The notes beneath the pieces are model-generated. The model saw nothing but the letters and a program-made list of their open reading frames with translations, was not told the origin of the DNA and did not search any database. 64,000 nt of DNA from assembly GCF_000788395.1 (NCBI RefSeq), contig NZ_CP009888.1, positions 1,508,001-1,572,000 on the forward strand, read 5' to 3'. The stretch is from Pseudoalteromonas piratica (GTDB lineage Bacteria; Pseudomonadota; Gammaproteobacteria; Enterobacterales; Alteromonadaceae). Both the position numbers and the translations under genes were made by a program. This document shows, piece after piece, positions 37,286-55,305 of this stretch; the first letter of the stretch is position 1, and each line of letters starts with the position of its first letter.

Positions 37286-37362
37286 GTTCCCGTAGCTCAG
37301 TTGGATAGAGCATTCGCCTCCTAAGCGAAGGGTCGCAGGTTCAACTCCTGCCGGGAACGCCA
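37286..37362 (+). tRNA. tRNA-Arg (anticodon CCT)
   Basis: A complete 77-base cloverleaf: acceptor GTTCCCG / CGGGAAC, D arm GCTC...GAGC, anticodon arm TTCGC-CTCCTAA-GCGAA with anticodon CCT (reads AGG), T arm GCAGG-TTCAACT-CCTGC, discriminator G and an encoded CCA. It sits alone within the flagellar locus. The 255 bases downstream, up to the convergent flgT end, show no gene and no clear terminator. Confidence 0.96.
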
Positions 37363-42037: not shown

Positions 42038-42862
42038 TTGAACAAAAATCTAGATGATAAAGAATACCAGCAGTTTAGAAGCTTTTTAGAGCAACAATGC
42101 GGTATTGTTTTAGGCGATAACAAACAGTACTTGGTTAAAAGTCGTTTGGCACCTTTAATGGCGCGTTTTGAAGTTGCATCTTTATCTGAATTAGTCACAA
42201 AGACATTAAGTCCTCGTGAACGTCAACTTCGAGCTGCTGTTGTTGATGCAATGACAACAAATGAAACTTTGTGGTTTAGGGATACTTATCCGTTTGAGCT
42301 ATTAAAGAATAAGCTTTTTCCAGAACTTTCCGAGTTACGTCGCCCTATCAAAATTTGGTCAGCTGCTAGCTCATCTGGTCAAGAACCATATTCTATTGCA
42401 ATGAGTGCAGCAGAGTATAAACAATCAAAGCCAGGTGGACTTGCGGGTGTTAATATTGTTGGTACGGATATTTCAAATACTATGTTAGATATCTGTAAAA
42501 ATGCAGAATATGATTCTTTGGCGTTAGCTAGGGGCTTGTCACCAGAACGTCGCCGCAAGTTTTTTACAGATTCTGGTCACGGTATGGCAAGGGTAAATGA
42601 CGATATTAAACGTATGGTGAGTTTCCGTCATCTCAACTTGCTCGATTCATATGCACTCATGGGCAAATTTGAAATCATTTTCTGCCGTAATGTCCTTATT
42701 TACTTTTCGCCTGAAGTTAAAGCGAAAATTATTAAACAATTCCACCAAGCGCTTAATCCAAAAGGGTATTTATTTTTAGGTGCGTCTGAATCCATGACCG
42801 GTCTGAGTGATGATTTTGAAATGATCCGCTGTAACCCTGGTATTATTTATCAAAAAAAATAA
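42038..42862 (+). CDS. cheR: chemotaxis protein methyltransferase CheR
   Basis: CheR methylates glutamates of chemoreceptors with S-adenosylmethionine. The 274-residue protein has the N-terminal helical domain ending DAMTTNETLWFRD, the SAM-binding IWSAASSSGQEPYSIAM, DISNTMLD and the catalytic-domain motif EIIFCRNVLIYF. The only reasonable start is TTG at 42038, with a weak ribosome-binding site 17 bases after the cheV stop, suggesting low or coupled translation. Confidence 0.95.
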   Translation: MNKNLDDKEYQQFRSFLEQQCGIVLGDNKQYLVKSRLAPLMARFEVASLSELVTKTLSPRERQLRAAVVDAMTTNETLWFRDTYPFELLKNKLFPELSELRRPIKIWSAASSSGQEPYSIAMSAAEYKQSKPGGLAGVNIVGTDISNTMLDICKNAEYDSLALARGLSPERRRKFFTDSGHGMARVNDDIKRMVSFRHLNLLDSYALMGKFEIIFCRNVLIYFSPEVKAKIIKQFHQALNPKGYLFLGASESMTGLSDDFEMIRCNPGIIYQKK

Positions 42863-42878
42863 CTTCACATATTAGTTT

Positions 42879-42894
42879 TGGCTCTCAAATTGCA
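42879..42894 (+). promoter_or_regulatory. sigma-54 promoter for flgBCDE
   Basis: TGGCTC-TCAAA-TTGCA has -24 GG and -12 GC separated by 10 bases. The predicted transcription start is near 42905, about 23 bases before the flgB ATG and inside the left arm of the adjacent inverted repeat. Confidence 0.75.
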
Positions 42895-42930
42895 TAACTT
42901 CTCCAAAGTCACTTTTTTGGAGAAGTTATG
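42893..42930 (+). promoter_or_regulatory. 15-bp perfect inverted repeat covering the flgB ribosome-binding site and start codon
   Basis: CATAACTTCTCCAAA at 42893-42907 is the exact reverse complement of TTTGGAGAAGTTATG at 42916-42930, with an 8-base loop. The right arm contains the GGAG site (42919-42922) and the ATG of flgB. RNA reading through from cheR would fold and hide both; RNA starting at the sigma-54 promoter lacks most of the left arm. Confidence 0.75.
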
Positions 42931-43332
42931 GCTATCAGTTTTGACAGAGCATTAGGTATACATCCGCAAGCAACATTGGCTCGTTCACAAAGAGCAGAGG
43001 TGTTAGCAACTAACATTGCTAATGCAGATACGCCTAACTACAAAGCGCGCGATATCGATTTTTCTAAAGCCTTAGAACAGGCAAAATCAAGTCAGTCAAA
43101 GCGCCTTGCAACCACTCACGAAAAACACTTCGATCTATCAATTAATAGCTTAGAAAGTAATACGCTTTACCGGATCCCAAACCAGCCTGATACAGGTGAT
43201 GGCAATACTGTAGATATGCAGCTTGAACGAGGTAAATATGTTCAAAATGCTATGGAGTATCAAGCGAGTATTAACTTTCTCGGCGGCAAATTTAAGGGCT
43301 TGAAAAAAGCACTTGGCGGTCAGGGAGCATAA
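42928..43332 (+). CDS. flgB: flagellar proximal rod protein FlgB
   Basis: FlgB is the rod component nearest the MS ring. The 134-residue protein has the rod/hook N-terminal motif RAEVLATNIANADTPNYKARDIDF and the C-terminal MEYQASINFLGGKFKGLKKAL. First gene of flgB-flgC-flgD-flgE. Its start codon and ribosome-binding site form the right arm of a perfect inverted repeat next to a sigma-54 promoter, which may block translation from read-through RNA. Confidence 0.97.
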   Translation: MAISFDRALGIHPQATLARSQRAEVLATNIANADTPNYKARDIDFSKALEQAKSSQSKRLATTHEKHFDLSINSLESNTLYRIPNQPDTGDGNTVDMQLERGKYVQNAMEYQASINFLGGKFKGLKKALGGQGA

Positions 43333-45959: not shown

Positions 45960-45975
45960 TGGCACTATTTTTGCT
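45960..45975 (+). promoter_or_regulatory. sigma-54 promoter for flgFGHI
   Basis: TGGCAC-TATTT-TTGCT is a near-perfect sigma-54 element with GG and GC 10 bases apart. Predicted start near 45986, 27 bases before the flgF ATG. Confidence 0.88.
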
Positions 45976-55102: not shown

Positions 55103-55305
55103 AAAAGGGATATTTAAAGCGGAGGCAACTGCAGAAAATATCCAAACAAGTAAGTATAAGAAACCAGTCGGTCTCTCGTACTGAAATGATTAAGCAAATA
55201 TAGTACCAAGTATAAAACAAGTTTTTTGACACCGCTATGTTTGCCACTTACTTTCGATCTCTTTTCATTAAAAAGGAGCCTTATTTATAAGGCTCCTTTT
55301 TTATT
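55103..55305 (+). other. gene-free structured region with orphan flagellin leader motif and terminator
   Basis: No ORF is supported here. A stem GGATATTT / AAATATCC (55108-55115 and 55136-55143) shows in its loop AAAGCGGAGGCAA (55116-55128), identical to the ribosome-binding leader of flagellin gene 3. A strong terminator ends the region: AAAAGGAGCCTTA / TAAGGCTCCTTTT at 55271-55300, loop TTTA, then T. The stretch is either the long 3' part of the flagellin 1 mRNA, a small RNA, or the remains of a lost flagellin gene. Confidence 0.5.
55271..55305 (+). terminator. Rho-independent terminator about 210 bases after flagellin gene 1
   Basis: A 13-bp perfect stem (55271-55283 with 55288-55300) with loop TTTA and trailing T run. 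No gene lies between it and the flagellin 1 stop codon. Confidence 0.9.

Follow-up and report, generated by a model that had tools for sequence, protein, structure and literature searches.

The junction between cheR and flgB raises the question of how a flagellar rod operon can be kept from being expressed by RNA that runs on from the chemotaxis genes in front of it. In V. cholerae, flgBCDE requires FlrBC, sigma-54, an intact export apparatus, the MS ring and FliG, and cheV of the same organism is independent of FlrBC and sigma-54 (PMC7064773). Since the rod-hook operon is thus bound to the assembly checkpoint and cheV is free of it, read-through from cheVR would bypass the checkpoint. By analogy, the same wiring presumably holds at the Pseudoalteromonas locus described here, which lies in a 64-kb stretch of DNA (the window) that was analysed as a whole.

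The cheR–flgB junction

The upstream gene cheR (42038..42862, forward strand), the presumed source of read-through RNA, matches the NCBIfam CheR model PRK10611 with an E-value of 2.4e-45, which lies under the curated cut-off, and the cheV call derives from a CheW-like plus receiver layout that stays under every cut-off shown. The first gene of the rod-hook operon, flgB (42928..43332, forward strand), is recognized by TIGR01396 (FlgB) with 121.2 bits against a cut-off of 59.05; flgC, flgE and flgF likewise pass their NCBIfam cut-offs. Between the cheR stop at 42862 and the flgB ATG at 42928 there are 65 nt, and the GG of a sigma-54 promoter is reached 17 nt behind the cheR stop. This promoter, TGGCTCTCAAATTGCA (−24/−12; 42879..42894, forward strand), conforms to the consensus and displays GG-N10-GC spacing. 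The predicted transcription start (+1) is at 42905 on the same strand, 12 nt past the C of the −12 GC.

Promoter and start codon are linked by a perfect inverted repeat of 15 bp. Its left arm, CATAACTTCTCCAAA (42893..42907, forward strand), starts within the end of the −12 element and reaches +3, so that the predicted +1 falls within the arm. The right arm, TTTGGAGAAGTTATG (42916..42930, forward strand), contains the GGAG (42919–42922) and the ATG (42928–42930) of flgB. The loop between the arms comprises eight bases (42908..42915, forward strand), two of which form an additional terminal G-U pair in RNA. With this 16th pair the RNA hairpin has a folding energy of −20.9 kcal/mol (z −8.6), and none of 200 shuffled sequences is equally stable. 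An earlier note, made from the letters of this DNA, had described a repeat burying the GGAG and the ATG of flgB, together with a sigma-54 element whose RNA would retain about three of the 15 left-arm bases; the letters and the repeat agree exactly with its description.

Among perfect repeats with loops of 3 to 20 nt the flgB repeat is the longest in the window. The runner-up, a 14-bp perfect repeat with a 4-nt loop situated between two flagellin genes (55270–55301), is probably a terminator. Exact copies of the arm in the 4.8-Mb genome are limited to the two arms at flgB. A dispersed-repeat origin was rejected on this ground, and all matches with at most two mismatches (11 + 9) are not above the reversed-pattern control (14 + 15). 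No Rfam family reaches its gathering score at the hairpin, the sole match in the window being a tRNA at 37286–37359, and no intrinsic terminator, defined as a stem with an immediate U-run, is called at the locus when scanned up to 40 nt past the ATG.

Accessibility of the flgB start

The accessibility of the start was expressed as opening cost, i.e. the energy required to unpair the start codon together with the 14 nt preceding it. For flgB of the window this cost is 22.6 kcal/mol in read-through RNA and 3.9 kcal/mol in the predicted sigma-54 RNA, values of thermodynamic folding that take no account of ribosomes leaving cheR or of co-transcriptional kinetics. The unpaired probability of the Shine-Dalgarno sequence (SD) is 0.00 in the read-through RNA and 0.61 in the predicted sigma-54 RNA; the corresponding values for the ATG are 0.02 and 0.55. 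RNA initiated upstream is thus predicted to pair the SD and AUG of flgB, as a hairpin of the T4 gene e type requires. The same tendency is found for the 35 loci with a significant hairpin in the survey described below, in which the median unpaired probability of the SD is 0.00 in read-through and 0.41 in sigma-54 RNA, and that of the ATG 0.36 and 0.62, respectively.

The position of the 5′ end is decisive for this outcome. Moving it upstream raises the opening cost at the window locus to 6.3 kcal/mol at −2, 10.7 at −4, 13.2 at −6 and 21.7 at −12. The start within the left arm is predicted from the −24/−12 element, and the outcome is sensitive to a shift of 4 nt. Mapped flgB starts were sought in transcript papers on Pseudoalteromonas and Alteromonas and none was found in the text passages searched.

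Conservation of pairing

The closest named record among the matches listed is Pseudoalteromonas sp. P1-9 (L031), with a FlgB identity of 96%. In the three nearest distinct relatives (L002, L003 and L031, the last with L188 as an identical sequence) the left arm keeps 13 to 15 of its 15 letters, despite divergence of the flanking sequence in front of the promoter. Both left-arm substitutions seen in these relatives convert a Watson-Crick pair to G-U. In other Pseudoalteromonas the same positions are paired with other letters, namely 14 of 15 in L189, L190 and L005, 12 in L006 and 11 in L004, while pairing in a register shifted by one base comprises 14 positions in L018 and 12 in both L019 and L215. 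The last three were misplaced by MAFFT in alignment A2 and were therefore paired by fixed register.

Pair counts were restricted to the 18 loci of group A, which share a common layout; group B was excluded, L018, L019 and L215 standing in the wrong register. Over ten stem positions in these 18 loci, 135 pairs are Watson-Crick, 30 are G-U, one is A-C and 14 are of other kinds. In alignment A1 (18 sequences) 91.7% of the cells are paired, compared with 42–57% in slid controls, and 18 cells are changed on both sides, compared with a shuffled mean of 5.8. The covariation score of 0.425 (shuffled 0.258, sd 0.023) is reached by none of 500 shuffles; four pairs carry a change on both sides, a number matched by 68 of the 500. 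Covariation of the arms, in combination with 30 G-U against a single A-C, indicates that selection acts on the RNA. The G-U ratio by itself is not decisive, because a G-rich right arm favours G-U, and the slid controls are independent of it. Pairing is thus maintained by compensating changes, both in alignment A1 of group A and in the Pseudoalteromonas registers.

The hairpin is not general in Pseudoalteromonas. Among the 82 distinct sequences of the genus in which cheR was found, 53 carry a called terminator, and six of these 53 show a difference in opening cost between the two RNAs (gain, see below) of at least 6 kcal/mol; seven have a short spacer without a terminator, and all seven reach this value.

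The Pseudoalteromonas loci listed, with or without hairpin, share a GTCA....TTGGAG block (42908–42922 and equivalents) that extends from about +4 up to the SD. The block resembles a site of the FleQ/FlrC type and may represent a downstream site for activator binding that overlaps the SD.

Hairpins and terminators upstream of flgB

The survey covers 279 flgB loci, 278 of which have enough upstream sequence; a sigma-54 site (score at least 16, leader at least 8 nt) is present in 272 of the 278. One representative was taken per group at 85% identity, a grouping that merges duplicate loci, giving 146 representatives. The loci were classified by the distance between the cheR stop and the sigma-54 GG (spacer; short, at most 40 nt) and by the presence of an intrinsic terminator in between, called by a simple rule. 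As gain we define the amount by which opening costs more in read-through RNA than in sigma-54 RNA.

cheR lies upstream in 128 representatives, and in 75 of these an intrinsic terminator precedes flgB. Short spacers without a terminator (n = 22) show a median gain of 10.1 kcal/mol, with 17 loci at 6 or above. For long spacers without a terminator (n = 31) the median is 4.5 (14 loci at 6 or above), for terminator-bearing loci (n = 75) it is 3.0 (14 loci), and where cheR was not found (n = 18) it is 3.5 (three loci). Gains of the short terminator-less and the terminator-bearing class differ with p = 1.3e-8 (Mann-Whitney U test, MWU). The difference is robust to spacer limits from 25 to 100 nt and to other terminator cut-offs (largest p 1.7e-7), and at spacers of 41–150 nt the median gain is 6.5 without (n = 40) and 3.0 with a terminator (n = 47; p = 6e-5).

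Shuffling bases −11 to +2 alone understates hairpins that use the promoter as left arm (the group of L177), and swaps of the whole promoter were added. Here the promoter stretch of each locus, from −27 to about +2, is exchanged for the corresponding stretch of every terminator-bearing representative (n = 75), so that all donors are real sigma-54 promoters. The own stretch stands out at p ≤ 0.05 in 18 of the 22 short terminator-less loci, compared with 12/31 long terminator-less loci, 14/75 loci with a terminator and 4/18 without a detected cheR (short terminator-less versus terminator, MWU p = 2.3e-9). When donors are taken from within the class and from other genera only, the own left segment still outperforms them at p ≤ 0.05 in 28 of the 44 short terminator-less loci of the survey and the replication, with a median excess of 6.0 kcal/mol, which argues that left arms fit their own genes. 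Nine of the 44 short terminator-less loci miss p ≤ 0.05 in the swap control, most clearly L045 and L403.

For replication, 60 further loci were chosen by genus, unread, among the matches listed; the prediction was written beforehand and the same code was used. 59 were usable, L356 being dropped for want of a sigma-54 site. Several genera overlap with the first set, the swap donors of which were reused. Short terminator-less loci (n = 22) again show the largest median gain, 9.8 kcal/mol, with 18 at 6 or above and 17 with swap p ≤ 0.05. The long terminator-less class (n = 23) has a median of 6.5 (13 and 8 loci, respectively), the terminator class (n = 13) one of 3.1 (4 and 5 loci), and the single locus without cheR a gain of 1.6 that reaches neither limit. 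Short and terminator classes differ with MWU p = 2.1e-4 for the gain and 0.0045 for the swap z. The split into hairpin or terminator is nevertheless a tendency and no strict either-or, because some terminator loci have a hairpin (14/75 in the survey, 5/13 in the replication) and long terminator-less loci have it in part (12/31 and 8/23).

In both sets together, short terminator-less spacers occur in 18 genera, of which 17 contain at least one significant locus; in 16, half or more of these loci are significant. The 17 genera fall into three families (f1, f15 and f25), most of them into f1. Recurrence of the hairpin in 16 genera besides Pseudoalteromonas had not been foreseen in the earlier note. 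In a class-level sample of 28 loci from beyond the order there were no short-spacer terminator-less loci.

As a control within the same genomes, flgF was inspected, which is driven by sigma-54 and lies downstream of flgE. The control comprises 28 of the 33 genomes of the short-spacer terminator-less class, with 27 usable flgF loci; in the flgF and class-level analyses L313 was dropped (no sigma-54 site) and L316 and L317 were omitted as second-copy matches. A terminator between flgE and flgF is found in 25 of the 27, with a median gain of 0.3 kcal/mol. A gain of at least 6 occurs in 2/27 and swap p ≤ 0.05 in 1/27; the two with the high gain are the sister species L292 and L293, which combine a terminator with a gain of about 9–10. 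In the window, the flgF promoter (45960..45975, forward strand) is devoid of a hairpin enclosing the start, a terminator-like hairpin is present between flgE and flgF, and opening of the flgF start costs 8.0–8.6 kcal/mol in read-through and 9.9 in sigma-54 RNA. The rarity of the hairpin at flgF in the same genomes shows that neither sigma-54 promoters as such nor genome composition account for the flgB hairpin.

Proposed function

The cheR–flgB junction is probably a read-through insulator that is built into the sigma-54 promoter of a checkpoint-controlled rod operon. Polymerase arriving from cheVR would transcribe both arms, upon which the SD and start codon of flgB would be paired and initiation by ribosomes blocked. 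The sigma-54 RNA, predicted to begin inside the left arm (at other loci just past it), would be devoid of the left arm and its start would be open. In this way flgB would be translated solely from its own activator-controlled promoter, and the left arm would substitute for the intrinsic terminator that many relatives have between cheR and flgB. The hairpin covers the flgB start only. flgC, the start of which lies 2 nt past the flgB stop, may be translationally coupled to flgB; flgD and flgE have starts of their own, and their silencing would need coupling, Rho-dependent polarity acting on the untranslated RNA, or a read-through that does not extend over the full length. The idea of insulation, put forward in the earlier note for the entire flgBCDE, receives partial support from the comparison for the flgB start: paired changes maintain the hairpin, only RNA starting upstream of the predicted +1 contains it, and it tends to replace a missing terminator. 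For the distal genes it would depend on the additional steps just named.

Three other explanations have to be weighed. The hairpin might mainly serve the 3′ end of the cheVR message, as exonuclease barrier or terminator, with hiding of the flgB start being incidental. It does occupy the position of the terminator of relatives, and in 8 of the 44 short-spacer loci a terminator-like call coincides with it, five times with a clear and three times with a borderline T-run. However, such a call is absent from the flgB hairpin in the window and in 36 of the 44 loci, and a 3′-end hairpin need not include the SD, yet it is the SD that is closed in the read-through RNA of the 35 significant loci (median unpaired probability 0.00 against 0.41), which makes this explanation unlikely. 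Very unlikely is a DNA palindrome at +1, bound by a flagellar activator of the FlrC/FleQ type or by a repressor, of which the RNA hairpin would be a by-product. Activators of this type have been reported to bind downstream of +1, and the GTCA....TTGGAG block, kept with or without hairpin, would suit such a site, but it is restricted to the loop and the right arm. The left arm varies while pairing persists, G-U outnumbers A-C by 30 to 1 in the stem of group A, and stems differ between lineages.

Chance complementarity between a C/T-rich sigma-54 promoter and a G-rich SD accounts for some pairing, as terminator-bearing loci also beat the swaps somewhat (14/75 at p ≤ 0.05), and single weak loci such as L045 and L403 may be due to it. 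As an explanation of the short-spacer terminator-less class as a whole it is highly improbable in view of the swaps with real promoters, the replication, the covariation and the flgF control in the same genomes.

The read-through insulator suggests how a checkpoint-bound operon can lie 65 nt downstream of a gene that is exempt from the checkpoint in V. cholerae, and do so without leaking. It offers a testable design rule for terminator-free insulation of operons, in which the promoter doubles as anti-SD strand and the start position is the key. It is also a warning that the downstream SD has to be taken into account when internal promoters are interpreted: operon prediction and transcript counts would score read-through from cheVR into flgB as productive, although it may be silent.

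Relation to known systems

In the fold-back inhibition of IS10 and IS50, the transposase start is covered by a hairpin that arises in read-through RNA and is missing from the element's own RNA. This hairpin is made from the end of the element and serves self-restraint of a mobile element. The flgB junction shares with it a hairpin over the start in read-through RNA alone, but is not a case of mobile-element self-restraint. The intrinsic terminator between cheR and flgB found in 75 of 128 representatives lies in the same place and has the same presumed purpose; unlike the hairpin, it halts the polymerase, requires a U-run and enough room in the spacer, and is independent of where the flgB RNA starts.

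The closest parallel is found in phages. The late promoters of T4 gene e, I-TevI, I-TevII, I-TevIII, segB and Aeh1 mobE are placed such that their RNA does not include the 5′ part of a hairpin hiding the ribosome-binding site (RBS), and for gene e the reported effect is 100-fold (PMC3014915; PMC2988022). In the phages and, by prediction, also at flgB, longer transcripts from upstream hide the RBS, and a promoter recognized by an alternative sigma factor frees it by initiating beyond the 5′ side of the stem; no homology is implied. The phage cases are late genes and homing endonucleases, whereas flgB heads a chromosomal flagellar operon, is driven by sigma-54, and shows the hairpin in many genera and tied to the absence of a terminator. 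The principle is thus known from phage T4; the new points are that the hairpin is connected with terminator loss and that the promoter serves as anti-SD strand. A search of open-access papers revealed no report of such a hairpin for flagellar or sigma-54 operons, in agreement with the earlier note, which knew of none for flagellar rod genes, and no RNA or protein data or experiments on the flgB loci.

Architecture in other lineages

The hairpin is built in different ways. In the group of the window the left arm extends from −12 to about +3. For the f25 group (L177, L247 and L257) the promoter itself forms the arm, from about −28 to −12; in L178, GGCACACCTCTTGC stands opposite GCAGGAGGTGTGC. 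In f15 (L146, L259, L272 and L274) the left arm spans about −23 to −6. Stem sequences vary between lineages. The spread of left-arm positions points to a repeated origin, but the short-spacer genera cannot all represent independent origins, because most belong to one family.

Up to 40 nt past the ATG, nine of the 44 short-spacer loci carry a terminator-like call, one of which (L147) lies inside flgB. A clear T-run up to the ATG follows the flgB hairpin in L353, L354, L355, L380 and L394, and a borderline one in L236, L372 and L374; to judge from their letters, the five clear cases may also terminate transcription. With somewhat less assurance than for the window locus, we consider it rather likely that Gammaproteobacteria have repeatedly made the sigma-54 promoter of flgB the anti-Shine-Dalgarno strand, or a strand of a terminator, for its own gene. 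The position of +1 would then decide on translatability, and one element would act as promoter, as translational lock and in some lineages as terminator, guarding the assembly checkpoint from chemotaxis leakage.

In Ferrimonas (L039 and L040) and in L144 the sigma-54 promoter of flgB sits inside an intrinsic terminator, which in L039 reads AGGCGTGCC..GGCACGCCT followed by TTTGCTTTT. Judged by sequence, this arrangement is a further putative route of flgB insulation that uses the promoter's own letters. Rheinheimera (L043, L046 and L048) and L389 combine a weak SD (AGGAT) with a stem of TTGTCATC or TTGCCATC with GATGGCAA, the predicted +1 being located mid-arm. A second, more distant FlgB with 40–47% identity is encoded in twelve genomes (G020, G032, G046, G049, G052, G057, G060, G068, G073, G083, G088 and G097) and perhaps belongs to a second flagellar system.
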